From: Rapana venosa
Taxonomy: Eukaryota; Mollusca; Gastropoda; Neogastropoda; Muricidae
Reading direction: 5' to 3'
NCBI GenBank assembly: GCA_028751875.1
Contig: CM054144.1
Coordinates: 17,887,799 to 17,951,798 of the forward strand
Length of the DNA stretch: 64,000 nucleotides
Each line of letters starts with the position of its first letter. Position 1 is the stretch's first letter. Below, one piece after another: positions 27,801-55,840 of the stretch. Under the pieces are notes generated by a model. That model was not told the origin of the DNA. It searched no databases and saw nothing but the letters and a program-made list of their open reading frames with translations. Position numbers and translations under genes: made by a program.

Positions 27801-28665
27801 GAATGATGCTTTTTCTCCTTAAGACATAAAATGATATCCCCACCCCCCACTGCCCAATTTTGTTTTATCTTGTCTACTTTAAGTTCATTTTTAGTTTGCA
27901 TTCGTATGTGGCTGCTAATGCATTTAATTAACACTCCACTATTCCAGTAACAATACAGATGCACAAAACCATTCTTTCAAGCACAAGAAGCATGGCATAT
28001 GACCTCTACTTTGCACACACAACACTATATCAACCTAAAAAGAAATACATAGGCCTACACATATGTCCAAAAACTTACCCGATGATAAACTTGAATTTGC
28101 CCCGGCGAGCCAAGCCCACAGTGGTGGGCACCAGATGAGGATCCCGAGGACCAAAGATGCCGTGGGGACGAACGGCCACAGTGTGAAAGTCGGCTGAGTT
28201 GGCTGCTAGAACTATCTGTCCAAAAGACCACAAGTCTGATCTGAAAAGTGGATACCTTGTTCATGTGTTTTGAGCGCAAGTGTGTTTCTGTGCATTAGTA
28301 TATGCATGGTTGCATATGATTACAAATGTGTGTGTGTGCACGCGCATTTCCTTCATATTCAACACAGCATATCCAATAAATATAAAAATTGAGGTGGATC
28401 AGTGGCCTAGAGGTTACATGCCACACTGTATAAAAAGCAAGAAGTTGGAAGTTCAATCCCTGTCTGAATCCAAACGTTCCCTCATGCACTAGACCATGTA
28501 TGGTGGTCTGGGCACTAGTCAGTCTGATGAGATGACAAACCAAAGTCCTATGTACAACAAGCATTTAGCACCTGTAAAAAAAAAATTTTTTAATAAAGAG
28601 CTGTCCCTGGAAAAAATTCCATAGAAAACCCCCCACTCTCTAAGGGAAACAAACACACAGCAGGT

Positions 28666-28697
<32 letters not shown>

Positions 28698-37600: not shown

Positions 37601-40600
37601 CAGAATCAGGGATCTTAGGCCATGGAGGTCATGGAAGACTCCAGGTTCCAGTTTGCTGATTTGGTTGAAGCTGAGATCCAGGGTCTTCAAGTTGCTCACA
37701 CCTGAAAAGGCATCCCTGTCTACGGTGGTCAGCTGAGTGTGAGAGATCACCAGGGTCTTGAGGTTGGGGAAGATCTGCAGGTCCTTCTTGGTGAGGTGGT
37801 GAAATGCCAAGGAACGGGCGTATGAGCCTCGGATGACCAGGTGTTCTGTGTCAGCAGGCAGACCCACAGTGAGGCTGTAATAGCCTGCACTACTGCACAT
37901 GACACTCTTGACCACTGGATTACATGTGCACTGACTGGGGCACACTGCAGTGATGGACATTGTCCATAATGTTATCACCATCACCACCACAATGGACACA
38001 TGCTGAACGAAAAGAAGGGCCATACCCTATTATCAAAAATTAGTATCAAGATGCAGCAACAAGTCACAAATGCCTATGAAACCACTGATCTTACTTTCTC
38101 TCAGAACCAAAATCTTTAGATGTTTTGTGTTTAAGCCTTGTCTTTTAGGGCAGGGCCAGTCTCTCACAGTGGCAACCAATTACGCCCTGAAGTTAGTTCT
38201 AAGTTTCCTTTACTTCATGCAAGCTATATATGTGACTGATAGGGTATCTGGGATCTTTGGGCTGGCACACTAATCACTGACATTGCCCCAAATCTGGCTA
38301 GAAGTTTCCTCCCCTTTCCATTTCATTTACACACACGCGCGTGCGCACACACACACATGATCACACATACACACAAACACACACACACACACACACGAGG
38401 ATCACACACACACACACAGAGGATCACACACACACACACACACAGAGGATCACACACACACTTACAACACACACACACACACACACACAGAGGATAACAC
38501 ACACACACACACCTGGTGCTACCCCATTCAACATCTGTCAGTCAAATTAACATGTTTGCGTTGCCCCTCCTCCCACACCACTCAGTCAGGCTAGGAAGGC
38601 TAATCCACTCCTCTGATAAGTCAGGCTTACCGATTTGTGGCTGTGGGCCATTTATCACGTCTCGTTCGCTGGGTGGCGATGTTACCCTCACAGCAATCCA
38701 CTGTTTCTCCCCTGTGAGCATTGTCTTCACCACCACTCTGATACTGTGTGCTAAACTCAGCAAGTTATCTGACTGAGCTGCTCCTCTGTGTACGTCAACC
38801 CAAGTGTTGATGTGGATTAAACTTCTGTTTGCAAAGTGTCTGTGGTATGAGAAATTACCCCTCTGAAGGTTAATTACTATAAACTACAGCCTTGACACAC
38901 TGTGGTTGATAAATGTGAGGGGGTTGGCTGGAAAAGACACAAAAGAGGTGAATCGATGAATGAATGAATGAAAGTTTTAAATGGTCCAGCACTTATTGAC
39001 CACCACACGCACTCTTGATACCAGACACCACTGAGAGAAAGAAAAATCTGATAGACATTTGGCAAGGAGTAGAACACTTTACGAAATTCACTAGTCACAG
39101 TTCTCATACCTATTACTTGGACCTTTTTTTTATACAAATATACAGACATTCTATACACATTAAGTGTAAAGTCTGCAATCTTATCTAAAAGGCATGCAAA
39201 ATCTGGCTGAGTGGTAAAAACTCTGGTTTAAGCATATTTCTTCCCCATGGGAATACCGGGGGTCTGTCAGTATAATAGCATTGCCACCTTCTGAAAATTT
39301 TGTGCTAGAAATTCCCTCTTTTCTATTCCTCTCTGTGTTTCAGCCTTGTTCCCCTATTTTTTCCTTCTGGTCTTCAAGCCGATCACCTTCATTAACAATT
39401 TTTTGCCTTCCTGGTCCCATTGCAAGCCGAGGAAGAAAATGGCAGAAACATCATTGAATGGACAGGAGGAGTCTCTCCACAACCAGCGCAAGCATCTGCC
39501 CAAACCACACGGCAAATGGAGCAACGTGCAACGTTTGTCACATACAGTGCTCCAACTGACCACGGAGGGATACGCAAACAGATGAGATGAAGAATAGTCC
39601 ATTATTCTGCTTTTTTCCATAAAAACTAAAAAGATAGGATGTGCTGGGTCTGACTTGTCAGGCGCTTAACGGCAGCGCAACGCATCTGCACTCATATGAC
39701 AGATGATAGGGTCTAACAGATGGAGGGGACAAAGTATGCGACTTCATGTAGAAGTGAACCCACAACCTCTCACTTTCATGAGGGCTGTATCACCATAAGT
39801 CTATGGAAGCTGGTGGGTAAAGTAAACTTTCAGATATTTTCTTGTGTTACTAATGTCAAACACTTTTCAAACTGAAAATCAGTTAGTCAAGTCTGTTTGC
39901 ATGAGTTAAAAGTGGGCCAAATACTCAAAATAGCATGATAAACAAAATAAGTAAACATGTACAAGTAGCCATATCATGATAGCACAAACAAGTGAGCAAG
40001 ATTCAATTATCAGAAAATCACACACACACACACACACACACACGCATACACGTACACTCAAACACAAGAGTGCGTGCGCGCACACACAGACACACACACA
40101 CACACACACAGCCACCCATCCACACACACACACTATTTCAAACAGATATGACTCAATCCTCAACAGGATTAAGAAATGATCAAACACAACTCCCCAACCA
40201 TCCCCCCACCCACCTACCCCCACCCACACCCAAAAAACAACAGCAAAAAACCCACCCAGAACCTGGCACAATGAACAGAATTGGTAAACCCACCCATCAC
40301 TATATTTACCTCAAACATTCAAATCACTGTGAAAGGGTTTGTTAAGTGAGAAATAGCCATGTATTATCAGCTGTCCAGTCCAATGTCAAACTCCAGGGGA
40401 CCCTCTGCAAGCCATAGCTCAGTTGTTTTTTTTCTTTTCTTTATACACAACCGACGCCAGTTTCTCTCGGGTCTGCCTCATTGCAGGAGGTAAGTTTTGA
40501 AATGCAAGCAGGTGACCCCAAGTTTCTCCTCCCCCTCCTTCTCCTCTGATAAGCATTCCTGAAGGAAGTTAATCCCACTCCCTTTAAATCATGATGAACG

Positions 40601-42049
40601 AAAAAGATAAAAGCCGAGCATTGATCCACAGCTTCTAGAAGGTTGGCTTTGGCAGAATATTGCGCATACAGAGGATTTGGGATTAGCCGCAGGAGAGGTG
40701 TTCTTTGTGTGATAGGAGTAGCCTATTGCAGGGTATGTGATAGTAAACAATAAGTTTGGTGTTTTTTCTTTTTTCATTCCTCAGCTAGAGCTCCAAGGTT
40801 TGCCAATGGTGACATTTGTTAGTATGAGATCATTCTTGCCCAACATGACGGCAGCTGCATTCCAACTTCATGGATAAGGTCTAAACACAACACCACAGTA
40901 AATGCACTTTAAAAAAATATTTTTGGGTCATCCATTCTGACAGGCACGAATGGGCTACTCTTCCAAAAGTCAGAACAGATTAACATGTGCGCAAGATGTC
41001 CTATATATATTCGTTCAGGGAACCTCGGTTTATAGTTTTATTCAAAGGACTTTTCAGGGAAGTAGAGTCAGTACTGATGGAAACTCCAAGAGAAAAATCC
41101 CCTTGATGGTGGCCCAAACCTAGGCTTGATCCTGGGCCATCAAATCATAAGCACAATGCTCTGTCCACTAGGCTATCCTGCTCCCACCCCCACCCCAAAA
41201 AACCCCCACCTAATTCAGGGCATCTTTCTTGAAATTTCACACAAGTGGTATGAAGTATTGCCTAAGCTGGTATTAAAATGGGAAATCATACTTATGGTTT
41301 TTTCTTTAGTATATTATTTGCTCCCAGCTCATTAAAACATGAACTGTGCACACTAGTACACATGCACACATCTGTGCATAAATGTATGTGTGCATGCACA
41401 TGTGATGAGTTCTCTCTCTCTCTAACACACACACACATACACACACCTTAAAAGTACAAAGTTTGAAATGAATCCTGTTTTCTTTTTCATTCTCTACCCA
41501 CATAACAACACGATACTGTCATCAATAGCACTCCCTAAATCTGTTTCAAAATGACGCACACTATCACTTCAATGCATTAGAAAATGACGACAAATTTTGC
41601 CGCTCACTTTGTAATGCACACACACCTTTACGCAAAAACTGATATCCATTCTGTAGTACAGATGACAAAACAAAACGAAACGAGGAGGTCATTTCACAAA
41701 AGCCACCATTAATCACTGAAAGGTGGACACCAGTTTGGGCCAAAGTCCACGAACAACATCCGAGTAAAAAGTTCACAATTTGCCGTCATGGAAGTGTTTT
41801 CTGATAATGCTGACAAACGATACTGATTACCAGGATGGACGAGGTGGCTCTGGGCCAATACTGACTGACTGATTTACGCATATTTCACTGTCCTGACCCA
41901 TGGTTCTGGCCCAAGCAATTAACACAACAGTGTGAATGAGCCAAACATGGGCCTTACTGTCAGCACTATCTTTGATGTAGGGGGCTAATTAAGATTAAAT
42001 GCCTTTTAAATCAAAGATGCTGGCAAAGATACAATCACTGATACACAGT

Positions 42050-42090
<41 letters not shown>

Positions 42091-44876
42091 CTACTGTGTG
42101 CCGGTGGGAACAGATGACAAAATTATCAAAACTGCCTGCACATGGGGGACAAGATGTAAAAATAGCACATGAATGCTTATTCTGTACCCTTGAAATAGAG
42201 GAATCTACCAAGAAACAAAAAAAAAAAAGGAACACACACACACACATACACACAAGGTCATTTACCCATATGCAAGACAAAATGGTACAATGAAATAAAA
42301 CACAGCAAATATAAAATATATGACTGACAGAAAGAAATGAAAGAAAAGAAGTGCAGGCAACATGTTAAAACTTCAATATGAAATGAACATTTTCTTAAAA
42401 CTACCAATAGTAGTAAAAAAAAAACCCAACAACCAAATGCATATATGACGCTCCACCATGAAATGAGTTGCACTGCACCTGACCCACTTTTCTGCTAGGA
42501 GCCATTTTAGGGAGGTGGGGGTCAGGTTGTTGACTTTGAGATTTTGGTTGATTATAAAACTCTAAGCTTCCTTCTACTGACATACCAAGGTGGAATGTTT
42601 TCTTTGCTTTAGAAATGCTTTTAAGAACACCCCAGCCGTCATTCTGACCACCTATTGTGATACAAACTTTGTCAATTTCTCATTTTGTCACTTTCTGGAG
42701 TCTAGCATTTCAATTTGTAATAACTTTTCATTGAATTGTCTGATTTTCAATGTGTCTTTTTTGGTGTTGAATAGCCTTTTAAATGCAAACTAAAAATATA
42801 AAAATGCCAACAACTAAAAATTGACCCACGGTGCAATGTGACTCCTTTTGTGGCGGAGCGTCACATATAACATGTCACAACAACTTTATTATTAAAGACA
42901 TGACATGAAAATTTTCTTTCTTTTTAAAAATGAAACATTAAGTTGATAAAACCTCTTAATATATTTTTGGATGATACCACTGGAATATTTTGTAAGCAAG
43001 GATCATAAGTTTTGTGACTTGTTAGTTTTCTCAATGGTATTTGTCGTCATTACAAAAATATTGCTCTATTTTCCCTGTCATAGCAATGCCTGTGAATCTA
43101 AATTTATAACAGGATGACCAGACAGCTGAATTGTTCTGACACAGATGTTAAAAACACTTGTGATGGAAATAGTGCATGCATGTGAGCATGCATTCATTGT
43201 GTGTGTGCGTGCATGTGTGTGTGTGTGTGTGTTGAGCAAGTGTGTATGTGTATATCTGTCTTTGGACAACAATTCTTCAAATAAATTACAATTTCAGCTA
43301 ACTCTAGCTGAAGGACAGTCTCTTAAAAATAAGTTATGCCTTGTGACTATGAACTAAAATAAGGTCAAACGCAATGCAAAATTATCACTCTTTTTTTTTT
43401 ATAGCCACTTCTTTATCATGAGCTTTTTAAGGCTACTGGACAGACCGGGTGCATACATGAACACACCATCAAAAGTTTTCAGGTGCAGATATGTCTTTAC
43501 TGGCTTGGCTCAAGATCAAGACTACAACAAGACTTTTCTTTTGTTTTCACACCACTTTTTCACATCCTTTTAGCTGTCCACCTGTACGACCTCTTTATGT
43601 TGTCATGCACTGAGTCTGATGCCATACAGCACAACAAAGAATATGGATATGACCAGCCACCATGGTGCAGTGGTTAGTACAAAGGACTCAAGGCTAGGAG
43701 CTTCGTCAGAGGCAGTAAGTTTGTGAGGGTTTTGCCAGAGCTCAGGCCAGCCCTTACACAAGAGTTGAGAGTTCTACATTTTCAGCTGGAACTCTGGAAC
43801 TATTCAGGCATGCATCATCCAGTTTATGGATGTAAATGTAGAAGGCACAAGTTTGAAGGCCCAAGTTACATAGCAGACACTGCAGGTGTCTTGCCCCTAC
43901 TTGATGCTTTATCTCACAATAGGAAGGCATTTTATAAAAGGAAGTGTACAGTACAAGCCTGTCAAAAAAGTTGTAAACCTGTTGAACATTCACAGCCTCA
44001 TCATCATCATACCATCAATGTCACTGATCATAGTACAGTTTTAAAAAAAAAGAATCAATGCACCACCCCCTCCCCCTCTATGCAATAATCTCGTAGTGAT
44101 TATCCCTTCCATGCCCGAGGCTCTTGGAGTCAGAGGCTTCATGGGGGACTGTCACTGGATAAACATGGTTACTGTTGTGGAATTACATTCAGTTTGGCTC
44201 TATGACTAAATTATCATTACCATTGAAAGGGAACTTTATACATATTGCCCTGTGACAATCAGTAAGTTGCTAGCCATCACAAGTGTTTTTAACACCTGTG
44301 TCCAGATAATAGACTGAAAACAATGAGACAGAAAACAAGCGTTAGCTTTTGGCTCACTTCTGTGTAAAAAAAAGGGACAGAGAACAACAGAGAAAGACCT
44401 AATGGCAGAGAAGATGCCTGTGAGTGTGCACTTATTGCACTGTAAGAACTATGCATATGTTTGTATTTTTTATTCCTCAGGTAGAGCTAAGAGGTTCACC
44501 AATGCTGAGATTCTGCGTTATGCACCCATTTTTTTAAGGACACCATTATGGTAGCTGCATTCCAACTTCAGAGGTGGTGTCTAAACACAACACCTATGTG
44601 CATGCATTTTTTTAAAAACTGTCATCTATTCCTACCAGCACAAAATGGCCTACTGTTCCAAAAGGTGGAATGGGTTTTAACATTTTGGCAAGGTGTTCTA
44701 CATGCGTTCACACAAGGGGCTTTGGTTTATAGTCTCATCACAATGACTTTTGGGGGAGTGGAGTCAGTACTGATAACTCCGAGGTAAAATCCCTAAAACA
44801 AGTGCCTCTGTGAGGGCTCAAATCCTGGACCCTAAGATCACAAGCACAATGTTCTAACCACTAGGCTATCCGTCCC

Positions 44877-44908
<32 letters not shown>

Positions 44909-45717
44909 ATTCCTTTTCCCACCTGCCCACTATACACACAATAGCACAATGGTCAGCTGAGTGATAAATAAAAGAAAAGTTTAAAAAAAACAACAACACA
45001 AACATGCTGACTCATTCTTAAAAACGCACATGGATTCAGGCTTAAGCAAATGCACATACATACACACATGCACACACACACACACACATGCCCATCTTTC
45101 CATTGCTTCTTACTTCTTTTCTTTGTCTTTCAAAACAACCCACTCTTGAATATTCCTCATACCGAAGTTGGAGGTGCTGAGCCTGACTTGTCAGGTGCTT
45201 AACGCAACACAATGCATTTTTGCTCGTAAGACTTCTTCTTCTTCCTTTTTTGTCATGTTTCTCCCAGGGGAGGTTTGACATTGATGAGCCTTCTCCATCT
45301 CTCTCTGTTTTGAGTTTGCTCAAAAATAGACGTAGCAATGAGATGTAGTTTGCTCATAAGACTGACAATGTTAATTGCTGTTTGAGTGTTCGACCAAGAA
45401 GAAGAGAAGAAGGATGTTCCTAACTCCACCATACCAAAGAAAAAATATCAACACTCACCTGTTCTTGCAATATTTTGGTCTCTGTATAAGCGTCAATGGG
45501 TTTTGAAGCATAAGGCAGCTCCTCTTCTTTCCCTGCTTGAATGTCTCTTCCTTCATACACCACACTAGCACTGCTGGTCAGCACAAGACGCTGTTGATAG
45601 AAATGTTTTGTTGCTCTGGTCAATTATGGGTCTGTCATGTATATATATATTTATGAGACTTAATCTGTTTCTGATTTGTATTTAGTGTACTGTTTAATGC
45701 AGTGTGTGTGTGTGTGT

Positions 45718-45789
<72 letters not shown>

Positions 45790-45829
45790 TTGTGTGAGTG
45801 CAAGCGTGCTTGTGTGTGTGCATGTGTGC

Positions 45830-45907
<78 letters not shown>

Positions 45908-45965
45908 TTTTGCACACAAACACAGAGAAAATGTGACATATCTTAACAGTTTAACACCCTTTCTT

Positions 45966-46028
<63 letters not shown>

Positions 46029-46678
46029 TCAACATTGTATTTTGAATGCTTTTATAAGTCAATTTTCTTGATTTTTTTGGTTGTGAGGGCAGGATGGAAA
46101 AAAAGTTGTATAAACTTAATCTTTTACCCTCAATAAAGATCATTTTGACTTGACTTGACTTGACTTGACATACATACACACACACACACACAGAAAATGG
46201 AACATACCTTAACACCGGCTTTCTTGCACAGGGAGATAAGCAGTTTGGTGCCCTCCACATTGACTTTGTGGAAAAGAGCTCTGTTATTGCTCAGCGGAGA
46301 TGGGGAGGCACAGTGAAAAACACAGCTGACTCCTTCAAGTGCTGCCAGTACATCCTGTGGGAGACATTTATTTCCATGACTGTAAATACAAATGTCATAC
46401 TACACAGTTATTTTTCTCTAAACAGAACAACACCAGATCCTTCTTCTCTCCCTTAACTCCATGAGGAGCTGTTAGGGCAGTGCAATGAATTTTTCAGGCC
46501 CTATCTCTTGGGTAAGTTGAACCTGGAGGTGCCCATCCCTCTTCAGGTACAGGGTGCCTGTAAGATATGTTTATGTTTCTATAATCCTCACAAAACTGAC
46601 ACAGATTACAGGATCTTTGATGTGCATATTTTATCTTGTGTGTGGTGTGTTGTCTTCGATTTTACGTCGGTTCACTCT

Positions 46679-46716
<38 letters not shown>

Positions 46717-47997
46717 GTGTGCGTGCGTGTGTGTGCATGAACAGAATTAAGTCACTGGCAGGCCTGTACGACCCAGAAGATAGTAAACATCCCCACCCCC
46801 AATTCACCAGATGCTGCTGCCAAGATTCGAACCCACAGCTTCATGGACCAACATGAATGGAAGACAAATGTCTAAGTCTAACCACTCAGCTATTGTATCC
46901 ATCAAAATAGATATAGATCCTTTAATAAAATATTTTTAAAAATTAGATTATTACAGTTACAGGTCTGGTTACTTTATTTCAAAATTGATATAAAAAATGC
47001 CCCAAACACAAAAGTTATCTCAGTTACATATCTAGATAGAGCATAACAGAACCTTCATCCATCTGTCCCCTCAACACTGGCAATAGTAAGTCAAATAAAG
47101 AGACTAACACTAAATTACTGTGGGATTATTTTCAATAAACTGACATTATTTGGTCCCTTCACATACAGACACCTTCAATGCTGATTAAATTATACAGCAG
47201 GGGGGCAGGATAGCCTGATGGTTAGAGTGATGTATTCATGATCTGCTGACTCAGGTTCGATTCTTGTTCAAGAGGATTTTTCCTCTGGAGTTAACATCAG
47301 TGCCAACTCCACTCTCCCCAAAAGTCTTCCGGATGAGACTATAAACTGAGGTCCCGTGTGCGAATGCACACAGAACATCTTGTACACACATTAAAACCTG
47401 TTCTGCTTTTCAGAAGAGTAGGCCATTGTGTGCTGGTGGGAACAGATGACAAAATTTACAAAACTGCATACACACAGGGACTGGATGAAAAAAGCATATG
47501 AGTGCTTATTCCATTATCCTCGAAAGAAGAGAATAAAATACTAAATAGATAAATAAATAAATAATAAATAAGTAAATAAATAAATAACAGTACCAACAAC
47601 ACCCACATGGCCATGACAATGAAAATATGCCTGCAGTTTGCAGAAAATACCCCATAACATTGCTGAAATGGTGCACTGAAAATGAGATACTGACCTTTTC
47701 ATTGCACAGATCACCAATAACAAATGAAATCTTGCTATTCTCAAATGTTTGCCTGATGTCAAATGCCCTGACAGAGTAGCCTCGCTGAACCAGATGTTCA
47801 CACAGATGACGGCCCAAGAATCCACAGCCACCAATGACCAGGTAGTCTGTCTGCACACAAACAATGAAACATGCATGATGGTTCTCATGGTGAATAGTAG
47901 TTCTGTGCATTTATTCTTGATTAATGCCATTCACAGTACTTGAATAAATCCTAACAGCAAATGCTGTGTTTGTGTGTGTGAGAGAACGAGATATTAA

Positions 47998-48067
<70 letters not shown>

Positions 48068-48260
48068 AGTCCACAAAAAGTATCCAATAAGCAAACAAGA
48101 AAACCACATGAAAATGGCAAGAAAGGTTTGTTACCTTTATCAGACTCATCGTTTTTGCTGTTTTTCTCAAATGTACGGAAGGTCTGTTGCAATACAGAGC
48201 GATTGTCTTCAGTTCTTTCGCGTTGGAAAGTACTGATAAATCGGCTGCCCTGCTGACCAA
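24825..48260 (-). CDS. NSDHL: NSDHL, sterol-4-alpha-carboxylate 3-dehydrogenase (7 coding exons)
   Basis: The family is an NAD(P)-dependent enzyme of the endoplasmic reticulum that oxidatively decarboxylates 4-carboxysterols during C-4 demethylation in sterol synthesis. Coding exons on the minus strand: 48260-48135, 47850-47695, 46354-46208, 45590-45459, 28215-28079, 26740-26638, 25169-24825. Phases agree, giving 381 aa (human 373). Visible features: Rossmann cofactor motif GGCGFLG (49-55), [16 protein letters not shown], the S-S-A-S block (149-152), catalytic YTETK (Y178, K182), [38 protein letters not shown], a hydrophobic segment (about 300-318) for membrane attachment, and [13 protein letters not shown]. 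The start is uncertain: M1 at 48260 gives normal length; an internal ATG at 48149 (MSLIK) has a good context. Intron 4 is about 17 kb and holds another gene. A divergent centrin gene starts 548 bases away. Confidence 0.92.
25800..25970 (-). repeat. Dispersed repeat family G fragment
   Basis: Reverse complement of the purine-rich half of the 16750-17010 repeat ('aggagaatggaccgggaagg', 'gcacagaatttcca'), in NSDHL intron 6. Confidence 0.6.
26325..26520. repeat. Family F fragment joined to a SINE B-tail module
   Basis: 26340-26395 is the reverse complement of the family F start ('gtttatagccctaccgatca', 'gccatatcagggctgtcacc'). 26418-26520 carries B-tail words in plus orientation ('aaagttggaatgctgctacc', 'ttggagctctggcagagg'). 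The F-plus-B pairing is also seen at 56.8-57.2 kb. Confidence 0.6.
26801..26872. repeat. (CA)n microsatellite with duplicated interruption
   Basis: Two blocks of (CA)n, each followed by 'catacatacaaacgca', suggest internal duplication of a 38-base unit. Lies 60 bases upstream of NSDHL exon 6 (intron side). Confidence 0.85.
27230..27390 (+). repeat. Dispersed repeat family H
   Basis: 'cccttaactctttgaggagt', 'catgggcaagctgaacctgg' and 'agcccatccttctccaggt' recur in order at 46.45-46.55 kb ('cccttaactccatgaggagc', 'gggtaagttgaacctggagg'). At 46.5 kb it is followed by the modules of a family E composite, so H may be its distal part. Confidence 0.5.
27415..27565. repeat. T/G low-complexity block with poly-G runs
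   Basis: T-rich and G-rich homopolymers alternate, including G runs at about 27475-27491 and 27550-27562. Long frames over it are composition artefacts. Confidence 0.85.
28390..28565 (+). repeat. tRNA-derived SINE, family C
   Basis: Box-A-like 'tggcctagaggtta' near 28401 and box-B-like AGTTCAATCCC near 28450 are followed by the family body 'cctcatgcactagaccatgt' and 'ggtctgggcactagtcagtc'. It pairs with the minus-strand copy at 1185-1370. Located 175 bases upstream of NSDHL exon 5, in intron 4. Confidence 0.6.
28663..28711. repeat. Poly-G run of about 49 bases with one interruption
   Basis: A G run broken by a single A near 28697. One of several very long G or C homopolymers in the window. 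Confidence 0.9.
29027..29440 (+). repeat. SINE with B tail, complete copy
   Basis: The head resembles family A ('gatagtctcgtggttagagt' and the middle 'gcgcacatgttaaaatccat'), but after 'acacactggtgtcgtgttta' the sequence is the B tail ('gtggctaccttaatgg', 'ttcaccattgttgaactt') instead of the A tail. Good reference for the B version. Confidence 0.78.
30325..31180 (-). mobile_element. CR1/jockey-like LINE, 3' half of ORF2, 5'-truncated
   Basis: The reverse complement matches the plus-strand element at 61.49-62.40 kb from VKYLGVVID-like codons through the C-terminus ([41 protein letters not shown]), then the CA/TG tract and the tail (30335-30380) ending in (TTA)n. At least one frameshift breaks the frame near 30815-30840. 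Lies in NSDHL intron 4, in the same orientation as NSDHL. No catalytic RT domain remains. Confidence 0.82.
31190..32575. other. NSDHL intron 4, AT-rich unassigned part
   Basis: Contains a TG-rich degenerate tract at about 31735-31880. No exon, RNA gene or clear element is seen elsewhere. Confidence 0.5.
32576..32970. repeat. (GA)n purine tract followed by decayed LINE tails
   Basis: 32576-32775 is an almost pure purine tract of GA, GAA and G runs, capable of triplex (H-DNA) formation. 32855-32970 has two degenerate copies of the 'agcgct' LINE tail separated by (AAT)n. Confidence 0.7.
33050..33650. repeat. 28-bp minisatellite
   Basis: About 20 tandem units whose core is 'ccaactgatgtataactg' plus 'aataacctaa', with measured spacing of 28 bases between successive cores (for example 33181 and 33209). 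Three variant units read 'actgacatgactgactcacc' or a close relative, at about 33405, 33455 and 33620. The upstream edge (33000-33180) is more diverged. Non-coding, within NSDHL intron 4. Confidence 0.93.
33660..34985. other. NSDHL intron 4, unassigned AT-rich DNA
   Basis: No gene, no RNA gene and no recognised repeat; only short A-rich or T-rich runs. Confidence 0.5.
34995..35345 (-). repeat. (CA)n, SINE A fragment and (CAGA)n
   Basis: An impure (CA)n at 34995-35053 precedes a minus-strand SINE A fragment (35095-35290) with a damaged A tail and the middle 'ccattgtgtgctggtgggaa'. It is followed by a (CAGA)n run at about 35297-35345. The tRNA-like head is missing. Confidence 0.75.
35350..36367. 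other. Downstream flank of the nested LRR gene
   Basis: A-rich sequence that probably includes the 3' untranslated region of the minus-strand LRR gene. I do not find a convincing polyadenylation hexamer within the first several hundred bases. A 34-base segment near 35760 ('tagtggaggaaaacaagtgc') is shared with 7716-7750. Confidence 0.45.
36368..38023 (-). CDS. LRR and Ig-like single-pass membrane protein, nested in NSDHL intron 4
   Basis: Single-exon frame of 551 codons. Residues 1-27 form a signal peptide. A cysteine-rich LRR cap follows (C28, C32, C34, C43), then about six leucine-rich repeats (88-233, e.g. [28 protein letters not shown]), a C-terminal LRR cap starting NPWHCTC (242-292), an Ig-like region (300-390), a Thr-rich, probably O-glycosylated stalk (393-433), a transmembrane helix (about 476-499) and a cytoplasmic tail of about 50 residues containing RYEDCF. 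NQT (349) and NGT (367) are possible N-glycosylation sites. The layout suggests a cell-surface recognition or adhesion protein, as in LRR-Ig families; ligand and role are unknown and I cannot name an orthologue. In the Ig-like region the first Cys (316) and Trp (328) are present, but the usual second Cys is Ile372. The gene lies inside NSDHL intron 4 on the same strand. Confidence 0.88.
   Translation of the reverse strand: MALLFVQHVSIVVVMVITLWTMSITAVCPSQCTCNPVVKSVMCSSAGYYSLTVGLPADTEHLVIRGSYARSLAFHHLTKKDLQIFPNLKTLVISHTQLTTVDRDAFSGVSNLKTLDLSFNQISKLEPGVFHDLHGLRSLILTGNEGCSLQPGVFQGLSSLKELYLGSMKLGLISSTLFMGLDAMEALDLSDNDIQKVPVDFIFPTVFQHLKLLDLSFNRLTELSHTLEPLFQRVDKVKLGDNPWHCTCTLLWLKKYPQHIVSAHGTDGMICNSPDRVKYQSLAQLADHSLMCVPPAVSSCEQPKPVKDGDSLTVKCHIAGDPTPEVSWVLPDGSMLSGKGDTSRGIAVNQTKDEVTLTVTATSMAWNGTLQIKLSNVEGISHSQVQIIVLLLTTTTTSTSTTTTTTSMSTTTTSTTAPTTSTTSTKKPTTTTIPRVRVTSFPQINLGSSTQSPPGSSTGEDGKNPGLGDNGSLQKTLIFGAVGIASVGIISAAVVGVVLHKFLSTSNKVKPLQVKERYEDCFSPDNGSQIPSSNVAPSSTRPVNLVMPAWE
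38329..38512. repeat. (CA)n tract with repeated 'gaggatcaca' interruptions
   Basis: CA repeats broken at near-regular spacing by 'gaggatcac' or 'gaggataac', so a higher-order unit has been duplicated. Located about 300 bases upstream of the LRR gene start. Confidence 0.88.
38513..39270. other. Upstream flank of the LRR gene, unassigned
   Basis: No gene or recognised repeat. Part of NSDHL intron 4. Confidence 0.45.
39285..39715 (-). repeat. Dispersed repeat family G, two pieces
   Basis: 39290-39425 matches in reverse the purine-rich half of the family ('ctagaaattccctcttttct', 'gccttcctggtcccattgca'). 39640-39700 matches the other half ('gtgctgggtctgacttgtca', 'ggcgcttaacggcagcgcaa'). The pieces are separated by unrelated sequence that may be an insertion. 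Confidence 0.55.
40017..40133. repeat. Impure (CA)n microsatellite
   Basis: CA-rich with GC interruptions, followed by C-rich low-complexity DNA to about 40260. Confidence 0.9.
40780..41190 (-). repeat. SINE with B tail, complete copy
   Basis: Read on the minus strand: tRNA-like head ending at 'aggatagcctagtggacaga' (41160-41180), the middle 'aaactataaaccgagg', and the B tail 'catgaagttggaatgcagct' to 'ccttggagctctagctgagg' near 40785. The box-A word is conserved. Confidence 0.78.
42045..42215 (+). repeat. (CA)n tract and SINE A tail fragment
   Basis: (CA)n at 42050-42087 abuts a truncated SINE A beginning at 'tgtgtgccggtgggaacaga' (about 42096) and carrying the A tail ('gatgtaaaaatagcacatga'). 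Confidence 0.75.
42220..44470. other. NSDHL intron 4, mostly unassigned
   Basis: Includes a TG-rich tract at about 43198-43232 and a possible tRNA-like head at about 43660-43740 ('catggtgcagtggttagtac'), which I cannot tie to any family here. No exon recognised. Confidence 0.45.
44474..44910 (-). repeat. SINE with B tail, complete copy, next to poly-C
   Basis: Minus-strand copy: head near 44850-44875 ('ggatagcctagtggttagaa'), middle 'gagactataaaccaaa', B tail 'gaagttggaatgcagctacc' to 'tagctctacctgaggaa'. A poly-C run of about 33 (44877-44909) directly abuts the SINE head. Confidence 0.78.
45702..46024. repeat. Very long (GT)n array followed by an (AC)n array
   Basis: A GT array of about 200 bases (45702-45906), with a short impure middle (45788-45835), is followed 60 bases later by about 58 bases of (AC)n (45967-46024). 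The two are complementary and could fold back. They lie in NSDHL intron 3, between exons at 45590 and 46208. Confidence 0.95.
46060..46170 (+). repeat. Retroposon 3' end with AATAAA and (TTGAC)n tail
   Basis: 'ataaacttaatcttttaccc' then AATAAA (46132-46137), 'gatcattttgac' and a run of TTGAC pentamers to about 46169. A polyadenylation signal followed by a short tandem pentamer is the typical end of a non-LTR element. The element body is missing. Confidence 0.55.
46445..46910 (-). repeat. Composite family E/H repeat with tRNA-like head
   Basis: The minus strand starts near 46905 with a box-A-like word 'tagctgagtggttagac', then box-B-like GGTTCGAATC near 46828. Body words follow ('tggtgaattgggggtgggga', 'ctgccagtgactta'); then come a (TG)n expansion (46678-46735), a module shared with 56.9 kb ('ggatctttgatgtgcatatt' on plus) and family H sequence (46445-46550). 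Confidence 0.6.
47201..47545 (+). repeat. SINE family A, full-length copy
   Basis: Head 'caggatagcctgatggttag' with box-B-like GGTTCGATTCT, then the standard middle and A tail, running into an A-rich (AAAT)n end up to about 47588. It lies just downstream of NSDHL exon 2, in intron 2, on the strand opposite to NSDHL. Confidence 0.85.
48000..48066. repeat. (TG)n-(GA)n compound microsatellite in NSDHL intron 1
   Basis: (TG)n at 48000-48028 followed by (GA)n to 48066, about 70 bases past the exon 1 donor. Confidence 0.93.
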
Positions 48261-48808
48261 CGACCTGTGACGTAGTGTCGGATGATTGTGTCATACGATC
48301 ACTTTCTGATGCCTTAGCAGTCTTGAAAAGTTGTGCTTAGCAGCTGATCTATTTGAAACGGAACAATGGCATCACTCATCGAACAAACAGTGCAGCTGGC
48401 CGGAAAATAATGAAGCTCTTGCAACAGATATAGGTTACCGGCGCGGAAAACTTACCGTGATTTTAACAGCCATTTTCGCTACGCTTCGTCAGCACAGGGG
48501 GTTGTATCAAAACAATTTTTGGCCAGGGGAATACCACCAGTCCCACAAACATTGTCTGTACCATCAAATAGGACACTTTCAAGCTTAGCAAATTCATTAG
48601 ATAATATATTTTATTAGTGAATTAAATATTAAAGCAGAAAACAATTAACTTAAAACATTTATGCTTGTTTACATGAAAGCCACAGTTCCATACCACCTTT
48701 TCTTTTCTTTCTTGAAGTGCGGTCCTAAAAATCCGGGTCTTTAGGCGGCTGAGTTTCGTCTCGAAGATCAACAAAGCAGTCGATTTGCTGTTGACTATTT
48801 CTGCAAGG
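48261..48808. promoter_or_regulatory. Shared divergent promoter of NSDHL (-) and centrin (+)
   Basis: 548 bases separate the two start codons, so both promoters and 5' leaders must lie here unless an upstream non-coding exon exists. The stretch has more CpG than nearby DNA (e.g. 'ttaccggcgcggaaaac' near 48434), an ETS-like CCGGAA at 48400-48405 and a half CRE (TGACG) near 48266. No TATA box is obvious. An ATG at 48294 on the NSDHL side opens a 53-codon frame overlapping NSDHL exon 1 in another frame, so it could act as an upstream ORF. Confidence 0.6.
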
Positions 48809-51800
48809 ATGGTTAGTGCATATTGTTTTATCACATCACTGTATATTTGCATTCAGATTAGACAACTGATCATCATAAATAAGCTTGTATAGTTAGGTTT
48901 AGCTGATTGTCTTAAAGTTGCCCAAAGTACCAAATTAGATGAAGCAAACCCAAAAGAATGGTGTTGTGTAGATACAAGTCGATTATTTTGGTTATATTAT
49001 TGGGATAATTAGCCTACTATCTCAGAAGCGCACATGTTTGATTTTTATCACGGCTATTGTATTACCACGCAAATTTAACAATGATATGTATTTAAAATAG
49101 TTAAATGATATTTACTTGCTTAAGTTTAATTGCTTTACATCCGAGCATGTTGAAGCATGAATTGTTAGGACCTGAGGATGAGACCAGCCCTTTCTAAGTT
49201 GTTGGTTTTTTTTTAAGTTAAAAAATACTGTTAAAAAGTAACAAAAGCATTCGAGAGGTAGAGTGTATAAATTATTGAATTATTTTCTTATCTGTTATGA
49301 TATAATTGATATTAAAATTGGGTCCAACAAGAATACATTCTATCCAGACATTTGGATGGTTGGTTGAAAGATGTTGATTCCTAAAGTTGATGATGGACAA
49401 CACAACACTAGCCGTATCTGTTGCAGTCAAACTTTAAGAAAACCACACTGGCAGGAGGAGGGCGCAAAAAGACAGGACCCAAATGTGAGCTTACAGAGGA
49501 GCAAAAGCAAGAAATCCGTGAGGCATTTGATCTGTTTGATGCTGATGGATCTGGCACCATTGATGCCAAAGAACTCAAGGTCAGTTGTCGATTTGTTGCT
49601 TATACTCTAATCATTCTTTTGAGTTAATAATTTTACACTGCATACATAGTAGTTTGTGTGTATGTTGTTTTGATGTTTGTTGGTATTTTTGTTGTTGATT
49701 GTGCATCTTTGAAAATGAATGAAGAATTTCAAAGGAATGAAAATGAATAAATATTAACCAAATGCAGGAAATATTCATAATGCTATTATAGGGTACTCTT
49801 TTTAAAACAAAAATTAACTTTTTTTTTTTAATCTGTTGTAGACAAAAATACGCATCAGACATTAAGAAAGGCTATTAGTATTACTCATATTTCATCCGTC
49901 GTGTTACTTGAACATGAACTTGTAACACACACACTCACTCACTTACTCACTTACTCACTCACTCATAAACCACCAGCATTCAGTGCATTGTTTGACAGAG
50001 AAAGAAAAGAGATGCATTAATTTTTTTTTCAAAATTTGACTCTCAATATAAAACACCACAAAGTAACAGAGGGAGACAGAGATTGGGGCAATGGGAAGGT
50101 GGTGGGAGGGGGTGGAGAGAGAATACAAAAGAGCCGTAAAATCTATTTTTCATCTTTTGTATGATGTTTGGCATGACTTTTACACAGTAAAGTATAGTTT
50201 GATGCATCAAAGTTTGATTAGTTCATAATTGCAAAGAAACTTTCTATATAAAAAAAAATTAAAAGCATGGGAATGGGATAGCCTAGTGGTTAGAACATTG
50301 CGCTAGGAATCTGACGACCCTGGTTTGATTCCCATTCAATGGGGATATTTTCCCTTGGAGTTAACTTCAGTGCAGACTCTTCTCTCCGCAAAAGTCTTTT
50401 GGATGAGACTATAAACCGAGGCCCCATGTGCAAACGCACACAGAACATCTTGTGCACACGTTAAATCCTGTTCCGCTTGTCATAAGAGTAGGCCATCATG
50501 TGCCGGTGGGAACAGATGACAACTTACAAAACCACATACATACGGGGACTGGATGTAAAAAACACACAAGTGCTTATTCCATTATCCTTGATATAAAAGA
50601 ATTTTTATAAATAATAAAATAAAAAAACTATTGCATTAAATCATGAATAGAAATTGGTGTATTTTCTGATTAAATATATAATATTTCTTTTTTATTAGAT
50701 GCTGTCATATGTGTGCAGGCTTTGGGCTGGTGTGTGTGTGGTGTTGTTTTGTGTGTGTGGGGTGTGTGTGTGGGTGTGTGTGTGAATTTTCAACAACATA
50801 AATTCAGACTTTTCAAAGTTCTGTAAAAGGTTCCCAGGGGGAGCTTAGGATTGAGCAAAGAAAGAGAAATCAAAAAGTGATTGCTGAATTGACAAAGGGG
50901 TACAGGGAGTATCATAAATACTTTGAATTGAACCCAGAGTCATGGTCAATACCAGACAATCCATTGTAGCTTATAAACCTTTTACCTACTAGGTTTTGCT
51001 TATTTCATCATTTTACTGTTTCCATAAAATTCAATTTTAAATCTGTGAACAAAAGACGCTTACATCATGACTTAGTGTGATTGCGTTTTTGAATAGGGTG
51101 GGGGTTCTTTTTTCCCACAGATTTTTTTCAAGCTTTTCTTTCTTTTCTTTTATATTGAAGTATTGGGTTTGTGATCACATGCAAATAGGGAATTTAGAAA
51201 GTTCATTTCTATGTTGCTTTTCTTTTCTTTCTCCATTAGAAGGGGATGGATCAGTTTACGTTAAAAGTTTTGTTTCAATAAAACAGATTGCCAAATCAGA
51301 GCAATTGCTTTTATTTTTCCTCGAAAAACAGGGTTCCTTTAAATTTGAGGGACACAAGGGGGCTAGAAATCCTTTCACCCCACCATCACTACTACAAGCC
51401 TTATATTTTTGAATAGATTTTGTCCATCTTGTTAAGCCGTTTCTTTGCCAGAAAATGCTTGGCAACTTATTTTTTAAAAGTTCTTGCTAATCTATTAAGT
51501 TGTGATATATGGAGAAAGGCAAAAGTAGATGAAAAGAAGTATAAAGAACTCAACAAACTGGTTAAGAAAAAATGTAATGAAGCCAAGGAAGAATGGATCA
51601 ATATGCAGTGCAAGGAAATTGAAATGAATGCAAATTTTGATAGCTAACTTATGCATGAAAAAATAAAAGATGTGACAGGGAAGAAATCATCTGCAAAAAC
51701 AGGTTGTATAAAGTCGAGAGATGGAGATATACTCAGGGAAAAAGAAGATATTCTTAACAGTGTGGTCAAAAATACATCGAAGATTTTATACCACGACGAC

Positions 51801-53719
51801 AGAGGTCCACTCCTATATTAGCAACGAAGATGGCCACATAATCGTGGAAGACGAAGGTGAGACATGCACTCAGCAAGATGAAAGTGGTAAGGCGCCAGGA
51901 CTGTGATACCCCATCTGAATTGATAACAGCCGTGGATGAAGTGGGAATTAAGGCAGTCACAAACTATAAACAATATATATGACACAGGAGAGATTCCGAC
52001 AGATATGAAGAAGTCCATCTACATTGCAATCCCTAAGAAACTGGGTAACAGCTGATGTGACCAACATCGTTACAATCGCCTGATGAGTCACCTCCCAAAG
52101 TTCTTTTACGAATACTCATGAAAAGGGTGAGAAAAAATAAAAAATTCCCCGAAATAATCAGAACGCCCAATTTGGTTCATGGCAGAAAAGGCACCAGAAA
52201 TGCAATCTTCGCATTGAAAAAAATTCATTGGAGATCATCGAGGTCCAGAAAGACCTGTTTCCTTGCTTCATGACTACTCAAAGCGTTCGACAAAAGTACG
52301 CACTCCGACTTGTTTGATATTCTGGCAGGGCTATACATCGGACGGGAAAGATTCTTCGAGTCCCCAAAAAATATATATGGGAACAGGAGGCAGCCATTAA
52401 AGGGCGACAATGACATTTAGTCAATATTGACCAATCTGCAGGGGTGTGAGGCAGGGCTGCGTGTTCTCGCCCGAAATTTTTTTAATGTATATAGTGAAAT
52501 AATTCTACGAAATATTGAGAATCATGAGGGAATTAGTGTAGGTGGCCCCAACATCAACAACCTGGATATGCGATGACACAGTCCTTATCGCTGACTCTGA
52601 AGAAAAACTGCAAAAGATTTTAACAACTAACAGACCCAAAGCGAAAAAAAAAGGATTACAGCTCAATGCAAAGAAGACAGAATGCATGGTGATCTCGAAA
52701 AAAGCTGTTGTACCACAATGCAACATAGCCTGTAAAGGAGAGAGAATCAGACAAGTAAACACCTTTAAATTCCTTGGTTGTACTATCACCCCAGACGGCA
52801 AGTGTGACACAGAAATCAAGAAGAGAATCGGTCAATCTAAGGCAACTTTTAACAACATGAAATGCATTTTTACCAACAGTAAGATAAGCCTCAAGACAAA
52901 GATCCATGTTTTGAGAGCCTACGTATGGTCCATTCATCTGTACGGATGTGAGTGCTGGACCCTAGCCAAGGACACAGAACAGCGACTAGAAGCAGTGGAA
53001 ATGTGGTTCATCCGGAGAATCATGAAAGTCTCATGGACAAAAAGGAAAACAAATGCAGAAGTAATGGAAATGGCTGGGTACAAGAGATCCCTTCTCAACA
53101 CCATCAGAGAAAGACAGCTCAAATTTTTCGGCCATATAATCAGGGCTGACGGACTAGAGAAACTGTTATGGAGTGGCAAAATCTGTGGAAACAAGAGCAG
53201 AGGAAGACAACACACAAAATTCACAGACAGCTTAAACAAATTCGCAACGAATAAAGAGGGCACCAACAATGAGCTCATGAGAGGGACCGAGAACAGGGAA
53301 GAATGGAGAGCCATGATCGTCGATGTCTGCAGGACCAGACCGGACACTTGAAGAAGAAGAATATGGTCTGTTGTGCTTCTTAGTGTCTTTCATATTCATT
53401 GAAGCAGTATTACTTTTTTTCTTTCTTGTTCTGTTACAGGTACCATAGATTTCAATGACTTCTTGACAATCATGACACAGAAGATGAGTGAGAAAGATGC
53501 CAAAGAAGAAATCTTGAAAGCCTTCCGTCTGTTTGATGATGATGAAACGGGCAAAATCTCTTTCCGAAACTTGAAAAGAGTAGCCAAAGAACTTGGTGAA
53601 AATCTTACAGATGAAGAACTTCAGGTAAGCTGTTGTTTCTGACTTTTTGATAATGTTAAAAATTAACCAAAAAAGTATATGAGCACATTTGGTTATGATT
53701 TTTTTTCTTAGGAGGGGGT

Positions 53720-53759
<40 letters not shown>

Positions 53760-54808
53760 GAATAGATTAGTAGGAGTGGGGAGCAGGCATAGATGGAAAT
53801 AGAAACAAAATCAATAAAAAGCATGCATATCTATTTTGAGATTTTCATGTCTTAAGAGATGTCTTATTGATTGGGTTTTTTTTTTAAGTTCTGTGAATGA
53901 AGCAAGCCATTTCTTTTTATTTTAATTAATAGATATAGCCTATTGAGTCAGTATGGAGGAAGACTGACATCAGTTTTTGTTTGGTTTTGAGTGCAGCCAT
54001 TCTTCTGGACCCAACAAGCAAAGATAGTCATTTTCAGAATCAGTGCTTTTTGATGCTTGAGGTGTTGTTTTATTATTGTTGGTTTTTTGTTGAGTTTTGT
54101 TTGTTTTGGGTTGATTGGGTTCTTTTCCTTTTCTTTTGTTGTGTTTTGTGTGTTTTGGGGTTGGTTGGTTGTGTTGTTGTTTGGGGGTTGTTTTTTTTTT
54201 GGGGGGGGCTTTGGTTTTGTTGTTGTTGATTTTTTTTTTTTGGGGGGGGGGGTGCTAAATTTTCCTTTCAAAAAGGAAGTGGTGGGGGGGAAATGATCAA
54301 GGCTTTTGAGAGTTTTCTTTTTTGCCAGCACTTTTCGTCTGTTTCATTGCTCTAGTTAATACAATACGACCCATCCATCCCCTCCTCCCTGAAAAAAAAG
54401 TTGGGATTTGTTGGTTATGAATTGTGCAACTCATAAGTAGGTCTTGTTCTCATTCTTCTCCATTGCTTACTACAAACTTCCAACTTTTTCTGTATTTTGA
54501 TTTAATGGTTGTCATTCAGTCTTAGTCTCAAATGGATGCTAACTTTGATATTAACTGAGCATTGAAAATTGGTTGATGGGATTTATGCATGAATTTACAG
54601 TATTCATCTGGCTCGAGTGTTCAGTTGTCCCTAACCAAGTTAGATACTAAGATTTGATAATTCTTAGTGTACAACTTAATATGATCAGTCTTTTAAGTAG
54701 CTTACAATTATTTTCCAGGAAATGATTGATGAGGCAGACAGAGACGGAGATGGGGAAATCAACCAGGAGGAGTTTTTGCGCATCATGAAGAAAACCAGCT
54801 TATACTGA
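48809..54808 (+). CDS. CETN2: Centrin (CETN2-like), EF-hand protein; exon 3 damaged in this sequence
   Basis: Centrins are calmodulin-like calcium binders of centrioles; centrin-2 also takes part in nucleotide-excision repair with XPC. Coding exons: 48809-48811 (ATG only, donor GTTAGT), 49427-49579, 50830-50905 (degenerate), 53440-53624, 54719-54808. With a normal exon 3 the product would be about 170 aa (human CETN2 172). Visible features: start SNFKK, basic N-terminus, [19 protein letters not shown]-hand loop 1 [12 protein letters not shown] (39-50), [18 protein letters not shown], loop 3 [12 protein letters not shown] (112-123), [18 protein letters not shown], loop 4 [12 protein letters not shown] (148-159) and C-terminus KKTSLY. 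Loop 2 falls in exon 3. Exon 2 ends in phase 0 while exon 4 needs phase 1, so skipping exon 3 gives K-V-P-stop: exon 3 is obligatory. The single-codon first exon is inferred. CETN2 identity over other centrins rests on close similarity and on the NSDHL neighbour. Confidence 0.85.
49580..50829 (+). other. Centrin intron 2
   Basis: AT-rich, with a (CACT)n-like run at about 49926-49968, the SINE at 50.27-50.62 kb, and a TG-rich tract at 50731-50782 just before exon 3. Confidence 0.6.
50272..50625 (+). repeat. SINE family A, full-length copy
   Basis: Head 'gggatagcctagtggttaga' (perfect box A TAGCCTAGTGG), box-B-like GGTTTGATTCC, middle and A tail all present, ending in 'aaagaatttttataaataat'. 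Small deletions exist in the 'gatgacaacttacaaaacca' segment relative to other copies. Confidence 0.87.
50830..50905 (+). pseudogene. Degenerate centrin exon 3 (about six bases short)
   Basis: Between centrin exons 2 and 4 the only similarity to the missing 28-residue segment is here, after an AG at 50828-50829. The string carries recognisable pieces in order: 'gagcttaggattgag' (for A-L-G-F-E), 'caaagaaagag' (P-K-K-E), 'aaatcaaaaag' (E-I-K-K), 'tgattgctgaattgacaaag' (M-I-A-E-I-D-K). No single frame is open across it because single bases are missing between most pieces. The expected length is 82 nt and 76 are present. The expected donor GTGAGTAT reads GGAGTAT, again one base short. Order, orientation, position and phase all fit exon 3. 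It could be a consensus error or genuine decay. Confidence 0.7.
51500..53360 (+). pseudogene. RTE-like LINE fragment inside a centrin intron
   Basis: A second reverse-transcriptase lineage, clearly different from the 2.6-7.3 kb pair. 51500-52540 holds the linker and palm region as pieces in changing frames ([25 protein letters not shown]; the motif A region; [10 protein letters not shown] near 52450). The YADD box near 52567-52580 lacks one base. 52560-53351 is open without interruption and encodes thumb and C-terminal regions ([63 protein letters not shown]). It ends in a (GAA)n tail. It lies in sense in the intron between centrin exons 3 and 4. Confidence 0.85.
53706..53758. repeat. Poly-G run of about 50 bases, 80 bases after centrin exon 4
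   Basis: Nearly pure G with a single T near 53720. Later in the same intron, 54080-54295 is a G/T-rich low-complexity block with more short G and T runs. No coding content. Confidence 0.9.
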
Positions 54809-55840
54809 AAACTCAGGGACTCTAGCTATCAAATTCATCTCATTGTGTGTCATTTGTTTCATAGTCTTGAGTCTTCCATCACACATACTGTCACAGCTCA
54901 GACTTACTGCAAATCATCAGCTGAAAAGTAACTTGCATGAAGTGGATGAAATCAAATTTTGTCTTAGAAAAATATAAAGAAAGCAAGAGATTTTCTTGTG
55001 CGAAATGTTATTCTTTTATCATGGTTAAGAATTGTATGGACTGACGGATTGAAAACGGATCTGAATGCTTCAAGACCCAAGGTAGTTCTAATGTGATCCG
55101 GAATTAACGCAGCTTTAAGTTTCAAGGAACAGTCTTTAGGAATGAGAACCAATTGTAGACTGGCTGTGAAAAAGCCCTTGAAGCTCGAGTATTTTGCTTT
55201 TGAGGGCAGCGCAATAGTAGTGATAAACGTGGAAACCCACCTGAGCACACAATTACAAGGTCATTCTTTTCTGTACAAACTTCTTTCAGTTATGATTTTG
55301 TTGTATAACCTCTTTCCATGATATTAATGGGTGTTTGTCAGCTGTGTGCTTGTTGCAAAAGATAAGGAGAGCCAAAGGCACCAGTGTAAATAGTCCTTGT
55401 GTGAATGTGATGATTGAAAAAATCAGTTCCGTTTTGTGATTGGCATTTTTTTCATTTCCAGATAATGAGCTTTGTATACTTAAATTATATTCTATTCTAA
55501 GTGACAAGGCTCATTTCGCTTTTTTTGGGGGGGTCTTTTTGATCTTTGGAAGAGGAATTATGTTGACAAAAAATATTTATTTTGGCATTTAACTGCTGAA
55601 CTAGGGAATGGAGGGACATATAAGTGGGAGGGAGTTAGAAATATAGATTCAAGAAGAGGAGAAATCGACATCTGTAAAATTTTGCAACATACATCTCAAA
55701 AACTGATGAATCAGCAGCTTGTATCTGCAGCAAAAACATCTAATTTGATCATGTATTTTACTGTGTAGCATTTTCTGCTGGCTGTATTTTGAAGTTAACT
55801 TTTTGCACTTCGGCCGCCTGATCTTTTGAATAAATGGATT
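54809..55840 (+). other. Centrin 3' untranslated region with polyadenylation signal
   Basis: Begins after the TGA at 54806-54808. The first clear canonical AATAAA on this strand is at 55829-55834. No exon or repeat is recognised inside. The extent is inferred from the hexamer. Confidence 0.5.

Follow-up and report, generated by a model that had tools for sequence, protein, structure and literature searches.

The window, a 64,000-nucleotide stretch of Rapana venosa chromosome 11, carries a gene for NSDHL (sterol-4-alpha-carboxylate 3-dehydrogenase; 24825..48473, minus strand) and a five-exon gene for a CETN1/2/4-type centrin (48809-54808, plus strand); both identities follow from best matches and domain families rather than from a tree. 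The 5′ ends of the two genes face each other, diverging from one short interval, and the neighbours of the pair are TAF7 and CLN5. An earlier note on this DNA had read NSDHL as a minus-strand gene facing a plus-strand, CETN2-like centrin and had supposed a mollusc host; both points are borne out, the first coding exons lying a few hundred bases apart in the genome of a neogastropod.

NSDHL was delineated by tblastn with the human protein and with the joined window exons, which placed coding exons, with approximate borders, at 47695-47850, 46208-46354, 45456-45590, 28078-28215, 26638-26739, and 24828-25169 (all minus strand). The joined exons match PF01073 (E 4e-67), and identity is 91% with a protein of Nucella lapillus and 88% with one of Babylonia over 86% of the query. 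Six of the seven matches in a genome search with NSDHL are the window's own exons; the seventh, on chromosome 24, is distant (25% identity). For the first exon there are two minus-strand alternatives, both read from the sequence. A candidate first coding exon at 48456-48473 would start at 48473 in a favourable context (AAAATGGC), encode MAVKIT, end at a GTAAGT donor, and be in frame with the acceptor at 47850 (cag before ACAGAC); the other exon, at 48135-48294, could start at 48294 (MTQSS..., phase 1) or at 48149 (MSLIK, phase 0). The start is ambiguous among these three positions. Relatives are listed as isoforms X2/X3, whose short N-termini differ.

The first exon of the centrin gene is predicted to consist of the ATG only (48809-48811; donor GTTAGT). 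In a paralogue on chromosome 8, exon 1 is likewise a single codon, followed by a donor and preceded by conserved sequence. Exons 2 (49427..49579) and 4 (53440..53624) were located by similarity search with the human protein, and exon 5, which contains the stop, likewise by similarity (54719..54808). Between start codons, the two genes are 335, 514, or 659 bp apart for an NSDHL start at 48473, 48294, or 48149, respectively; the 548 bp reported earlier was not reproduced. Two protein-coding genes on opposite strands, with facing 5′ ends and starts less than 1 kb apart (335-659 bp, counted between candidate start codons), constitute a bidirectional pair, and NSDHL-centrin in this snail is a further case among the known pairs of this divergent kind.

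The coding exons of the chromosome-8 centrin, all five of which are recognisable, have been conserved, and the assembled sequence of exon 2 shows a one-base deletion. CLN5 lies convergent behind centrin on both chromosomes, in the same order. No NSDHL was found by tblastn beside the chromosome-8 gene within ~21 kb upstream. A genome search with TAF7 returned matches on chromosome 11 only, so the duplicated block is not extended by that gene. PMC8152183 describes a genome duplication in the neogastropod lineage, and the chromosome-8 centrin is probably a copy from that event rather than from a smaller duplication, an attribution based on two shared genes.

Exon 3 of the window's centrin (50830..50905, plus strand) is recognisable but damaged, with seven to nine indels depending on the alignment. 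A human peptide query for this exon gave no match in the window; the chromosome-8 exon used as a DNA query found it, with 77% identity over 100 columns (E 2e-9) and an alignment score of 80, whereas none of 300 shuffles exceeded 33. These lesions could mark a decaying pseudogene, in which exon 3 was lost once the genome duplication made the copy redundant and the pair persists here as a relic. The splice donor of exon 3 is GG rather than GT, joining exon 2 to exon 4 would yield a stop, and chromosome 8 holds a second copy whose exon 3 is clean. Yet exons 2, 4, and 5 differ from their chromosome-8 counterparts mostly at third codon positions (11, 1, and 68 substitutions at positions 1, 2, and 3; exon 4 has 34, with none at position 2), and the window copy of these exons carries no indel. 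Furthermore, the intron before exon 4 contains a LINE-type retrotransposon (51511..53367, plus strand; PF00078), for which 40 other matches at 91-97% were listed in the genome. Of the indels private to this element, 40 fall within 51620-52669, and the ~700 bp that follow are free of them. The indel-dense stretch (51.6-52.65 kb) looks like the mark of unpolished long-read sequence, and the assembly was made from PacBio CLR reads with wtdbg and Pilon, according to PMC10432487. Because this stretch lies close by, the damage to exon 3 is more likely an assembly error than the sign of a pseudogene; in view of the LINE indel profile, the pseudogene alternative is given very little credence. What looks like a broken gene in this published assembly is probably a gap in polishing.

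In and around the interval between the nearest start codons (48474..48808) there are two clusters of CpG dinucleotides, one on the NSDHL side (48150-48487) and one on the centrin side (48720-48781), set apart by an AT-rich middle of 232 bp that is free of CpG (48488-48719). CpG observed/expected reaches 0.82-0.90 in nine 500-bp windows starting at 48001-48401 (98.0-99.5th percentile of the whole stretch), a peak that covers both gene starts; GC is ~41% in the best CpG window of the interval, and higher CpG scores occur elsewhere, in some windows near 7.2 kb and 9.1-9.3 kb. No TATA[AT]A occurs on either strand at 48100-48860. A centrin-proximal element (48717..48782, plus strand), putatively 5′ UTR or core promoter, is common to the chromosome-8 centrin (local alignment score 46, reached by none of 200 shuffles), and a looser alignment extends from it to the ATG. 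It is the only part of the interval that the chromosome-8 gene shares: for the NSDHL side and the middle, compared on the same strand, the score was reached by 26 and 132 of 200 shuffles. When searched against the genome at E <= 1, the segment 48290-48830 matches itself alone; that search was insensitive enough to have missed the 66-bp chromosome-8 similarity as well; a repeat origin of the interval is thus unsupported, within the sensitivity of that search. The centrin 5′ element shows no RNA structure beyond that of shuffles (z 0.09), and no Rfam family reaches its gathering score at 46000-55500.

The snail pair resembles that of human Xq28, whose members lie on opposite strands: the same two genes are involved (with the snail centrin taken as pro-orthologue of CETN1/2/4), their promoters, putative in the snail, lie within a few hundred bases, and CpG enrichment may be common to both. 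It differs in the AT-rich, CpG-free middle and the ~41% GC of the snail interval, and in its neighbours, which in human are MAGE genes, GABRQ, and ZNF185. In human, the CpG-island probe cg15511516 is listed within TSS200 of both NSDHL and CETN2 (PMC13230595), and one methylation region is assigned to both genes. A turkey gene list runs ZNF185, NSDHL, CETN2, so the two are apparently neighbours in birds too. Only in Rapana was adjacency observed directly; the human and turkey arrangements come from published annotation. According to PMC2871058, divergent pairs that are strongly conserved tend to have related functions; the HSP10/HSP60 pair discussed there is likewise divergent, under 1 kb, and common to distant animals. 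Unlike pairs of that type, NSDHL and centrin have products with no obvious functional tie, and NSDHL is missing beside the second centrin copy.

The divergent pair was likely inherited from the common ancestor of molluscs and vertebrates; a human CpG probe within 200 bp of both promoters, together with the mollusc pair, makes common descent the simplest reading. The earlier proposal that the pair has stayed together since before the protostome/deuterostome split accords with the mollusc and human cases. Linkage in other animals was gauged by whether the longest contigs listed for the two proteins are of equal length, which holds in 5 of 16 species and fails in 11. Six of these 11 reflect mammalian centrin-1 and three are on small scaffolds (Nucella, Lymnaea, and Lamellibrachia), leaving the starfish Asterias (21,693,562 versus 28,088,862) and a hybrid of the amphioxus Branchiostoma (21,068,153 versus 26,009,725). 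These two cases, and an observed adjacency confined to vertebrates and this snail, would fit genes that were joined separately in vertebrates and gastropods. Such convergence is nonetheless improbable: with 29,649 genes (a count from PMC10432487), the chance that two named genes become divergent neighbours is ~2/29,649 × 1/4, or ~2e-5 by our own rough sum, and even allowing for a few other pairs here that might have caught the eye, the coincidence is very unlikely. Equal-sized longest contigs in the urchin and two acorn worms also point to old linkage; with lungfish and camel they make up the five species of this kind, in which equal size shows one chromosome at most, not adjacency. Among the matches listed, no title or abstract opening describes NSDHL-CETN2 as an ancient head-to-head pair.

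A single bidirectional promoter within 48474-48808, under selection for joint expression since before the protostome/deuterostome split, would account for the short interval and the joint CpG peak, and in human cells PMC11942224 names the H3K4me3 peaks at both genes jointly as a reference that is alike in all samples. We consider it unlikely, since the CpG clusters are set apart and the chromosome-8 centrin has only the centrin-side element in common with the window, with the caveat of the exon-2 deletion there; more weakly, a human single-cell study names NSDHL among cholesterol genes and CETN2 in a different gene list (PMC11411778). With CLN5 in the same order and no NSDHL found upstream, the chromosome-8 centrin leaves unsupported the earlier suggestion that the two genes are constrained by a promoter in common. 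A shared element could have decayed past detection on chromosome 8, and the exon-2 deletion, if real, would mean that this copy is broken and that the natural experiment fails. Very improbable is a pre-bilaterian pair in which selection coupled sterol synthesis with centriole/cilium production through one element between the starts, until the neogastropod duplication released it; if that were true, chromosome 11 with the pair and chromosome 8 with centrin alone would be a natural test of the purpose of the shared promoter.

We favour, as reasonably probable, an old divergent pair whose two promoters abut yet can be separated and which closeness, for the most part, has preserved; two promoters are preferred because the chromosome-8 centrin, without NSDHL, shares only the centrin-side element. 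Each gene would have a short promoter of its own, the two lying at opposite edges of the CpG-free middle (~230 bp), with starts for NSDHL probably near 48480 and centrin probably near 48700, as judged from the CpG clusters, the start context, and the conserved element. Abutting promoters would have open chromatin and divergent polymerase entry in common, with a core of its own on each side, and the pair may have been retained since any breakage within such a short stretch would harm one promoter or both; co-expression need not be invoked. After the neogastropod genome duplication, chromosome 11 would have kept both genes and chromosome 8 centrin and CLN5 without NSDHL. Since the duplicated region kept centrin without its partner, the pairing, though old, is probably not indispensable.

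The deep conservation of divergent pairs is used to argue that gene order is constrained by shared promoters. The duplication in this lineage offers a seldom available control, a single genome in which the same centrin occurs once beside its partner and once alone, and recognisable similarity between the two chromosomes is confined to the centrin side of the interval; the question of constraint thereby becomes testable within one species.

The NSDHL-centrin divergent gene pair is real. A single NSDHL gene lies on the minus strand, with coding exons running from 47850 to 24828 (tblastn, human NSDHL query); the joined protein matches PF01073 (E 4e-67) and is 91% identical to the Nucella lapillus protein and 88% to that of Babylonia areolata, with 86% of the query covered. 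The centrin begins at 48809 on the plus strand; the closest solved relatives of its exons 1-2 are centrin-2 chains, and two residues separate exons 2, 4, and 5 from Nucella centrin-1. The opposed orientation described in the earlier note is confirmed. The 548-bp spacing it gave was not reproduced: three candidate NSDHL starts (48473, 48294, and 48149) leave 335, 514, and 659 bases, respectively, to the centrin ATG. We favor the putative minus-strand start at 48473 (MAVKIT), on its start context and its donor, GTAAGT, which joins in frame to the acceptor cag|ACAGAC. NSDHL relatives have short N-termini that vary, and several carry an isoform X2 or X3 annotation; alternative first exons may therefore be in use.

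The 17-kb NSDHL intron contains, on the same strand, an intronless open frame of about 550 residues (36371-38026, minus strand) with leucine-rich repeats, an immunoglobulin domain, and, by eye, a probable membrane span. Exons of TAF7 (a TFIID subunit, PF04658) at 11.4-19.3 kb on the plus strand lie tail-to-tail with NSDHL. A plus-strand open frame of 581 residues at 5507-7249 resembles a LINE reverse transcriptase by eye and has a second, partial copy at 2292-4182; 62482-63430 is repetitive, with open frames on either strand. A SINE-like family of about 320 bp, its members about 70-90% alike, occurs at 47241-47561, 50280-50640, and 21294-21632, and at many other R. venosa loci examined.

In human, NSDHL and CETN2 lie on opposite strands. 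Linkage in other animals was approximated by asking whether the longest contigs carrying NSDHL and centrin were equal in size, a proxy for one chromosome rather than for adjacency. The protein searches listed 120 matches each of 1129, 6911, and 448, far from all species, and 16 species, counted by eye, had both proteins and a contig size among the matches listed. Contig sizes were equal in five: Strongylocentrotus purpuratus (33,320,444), Ptychodera flava (50,616,078), Glandiceps talaboti (27,529,565), Protopterus annectens (863,342,500), and Camelus dromedarius (118,545,724). Six of the 11 unequal cases are mammals represented by centrin-1 (Galemys, Orycteropus, Echinops, Sorex fumeus, Thomomys, and Talpa), and they are uninformative because mammalian centrin-1 is a retrogene located elsewhere in the genome. 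Three others (Nucella, Lymnaea, and Lamellibrachia) are on scaffolds below 4.5 Mb. The remaining two, Asterias and a Branchiostoma hybrid, have their genes on large contigs and so speak against the pair being universal, with the caveats that Asterias has centrin on two contigs, of which the longest alone was compared, and that the hybrid carries two parental genomes. Gastropods, a chiton, and vertebrates appear among the 120 NSDHL matches listed, and no row named as a bivalve does in either search, possibly because bivalves have lost sterol synthesis.

In the vertebrate literature, a human CpG-island probe is annotated to the TSS200 of NSDHL and CETN2 alike (PMC13230595), the two genes share the assignment of one differentially methylated region (PMC6251202), a turkey region contains ZNF185, NSDHL, and CETN2 (PMC8470100), and a duck study places both among the genes nearest its markers (PMC9317390). 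Their appearance in separate gene lists in the part of PMC11411778 consulted is a weak hint against tight co-expression. No description of the pair as ancient was found among the literature matches listed.

Human CETN2, searched against the whole genome, had 67 matches at E <= 0.01, mostly below 60% identity; the weaker ones we infer to be other EF-hand genes. CETN1/2-type exons were found at two loci, the one described here on chromosome 11 (three exon matches; 86, 84, and 69%) and another on chromosome 8 at 17.819-17.823 Mb (four; 87, 86, 84, and 76%); chromosome 31 has a remoter relative (75% over 28 residues, 55% over 42). On both chromosomes the centrin is followed by a convergent CLN5 gene (PF15014), at 3966-8686 on the minus strand of chromosome-11 locus L031 and 1998-7858 on the plus strand of chromosome-8 locus L030 (local coordinates; in each, two exons by Pfam and two more by parallel order). 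This convergence is a mark of a duplicated block. Six of seven genome matches to NSDHL are on chromosome 11, the seventh being a 25% identical sequence on chromosome 24 that is also a general PF01073 match; all four matches to TAF7, which lies beyond NSDHL, are on chromosome 11, and the nearest recognized gene pieces upstream of the chromosome-8 centrin belong to alpha-galactosidase. NSDHL is therefore present in one copy of the region and absent from the other. For the ancestry of neogastropods, to which the muricid Rapana belongs, PMC8152183 argues a whole-genome duplication.

Each centrin copy carries apparent damage as assembled. Exon 3 of the chromosome-11 gene was not found in the window by peptide search; chromosome-8 exon 3 used as a DNA query matched 50822-50914 (77%, E 2e-9), with one insertion and six deletions in two of the three alignment settings (two and seven in the third) and GG at the splice donor where GT is expected. 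Joining exon 2 directly to exon 4 would produce a stop. Exons 2, 4, and 5 have no indels on this copy, and their substitutions relative to chromosome 8 fall 11/1/68 at codon positions 1/2/3, the sole second-position change being in the stop codon; those in exon 3 (5/1/5 or 3/3/3) settle nothing by themselves. A LINE in the following intron (51511-53367, plus strand) was profiled against nine other genomic copies, from 40 other matches listed, a difference being private when it departs from 80% or more of the copies that span the position. Between 51620 and 52669 the private differences of the window copy number 20 deletions, 20 insertions, and 35 mismatches, and from 52670 to its end none, none, and six; the dense indels stop abruptly near 52670. 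A real insertion is expected to age evenly. The likely cause is a stretch of long-read sequence left unpolished, and we infer that it reaches back 700 bp upstream to exon 3. The genome searched is a version (2,004 contigs, versus 5,242 sequences in the paper) of the PMC10432487 assembly, for which wtdbg was run on PacBio continuous long reads and Pilon was used for polishing. The chromosome-8 centrin would be broken if a one-base deletion in its exon 2 (about 7820 of locus L028) is real; against this, its exon differences from the window copy are mostly at third positions, and its diagnostic residue (SNM) is present in an intact Nucella protein. The deletion is possibly the same kind of assembly error, and the Nucella centrin, sharing that residue, may represent the chromosome-8 duplicate.

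The centrin start codon appears to form a one-codon exon, also present on chromosome 8, and the sequence upstream aligns between the copies from 48717 to the ATG, which points to a centrin promoter or 5' UTR at 48717-48808. Three parts of the interval were compared, on the same strand, with the 1.1 kb that precede the chromosome-8 centrin, using 200 dinucleotide shuffles each. The score of the centrin side (48700-48811; 46) was reached by 0 of 200 shuffles, that of the middle (48488-48699) by 132, and that of the NSDHL side (48150-48487) by 26; six comparisons with the other strand and the next 10 kb (one strand) gave no standout (32, 69; 38, 61; 58, 132 of 200). Where NSDHL is absent, the centrin half is the only recognizable part, a pattern that agrees better with two separable promoter cores than with one indispensable shared element, although a shared element could have decayed past detection on chromosome 8. 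A low-sensitivity genome search with the interval returned one match, itself. In the nine 500-bp windows with starts from 48001 to 48401, CpG observed/expected is 0.82-0.90, at the 98.0-99.5th percentile for the window as a whole; there are 20 CpGs in 48150-48487, six in 48720-48781, and none between them (48488-48719). Higher values near 7.2 kb and 9.1-9.3 kb, and almost equal ones in the LINE around 52.0-52.6 kb, speak against CpG as a promoter mark.

The earlier note had proposed an ancient pair constrained by a shared promoter. The pair stands, and is probably old; the proposal that it needs a shared promoter to stay together is weakened by the chromosome-8 centrin, since duplication has provided a natural experiment in which a centrin occurs both with and without NSDHL.
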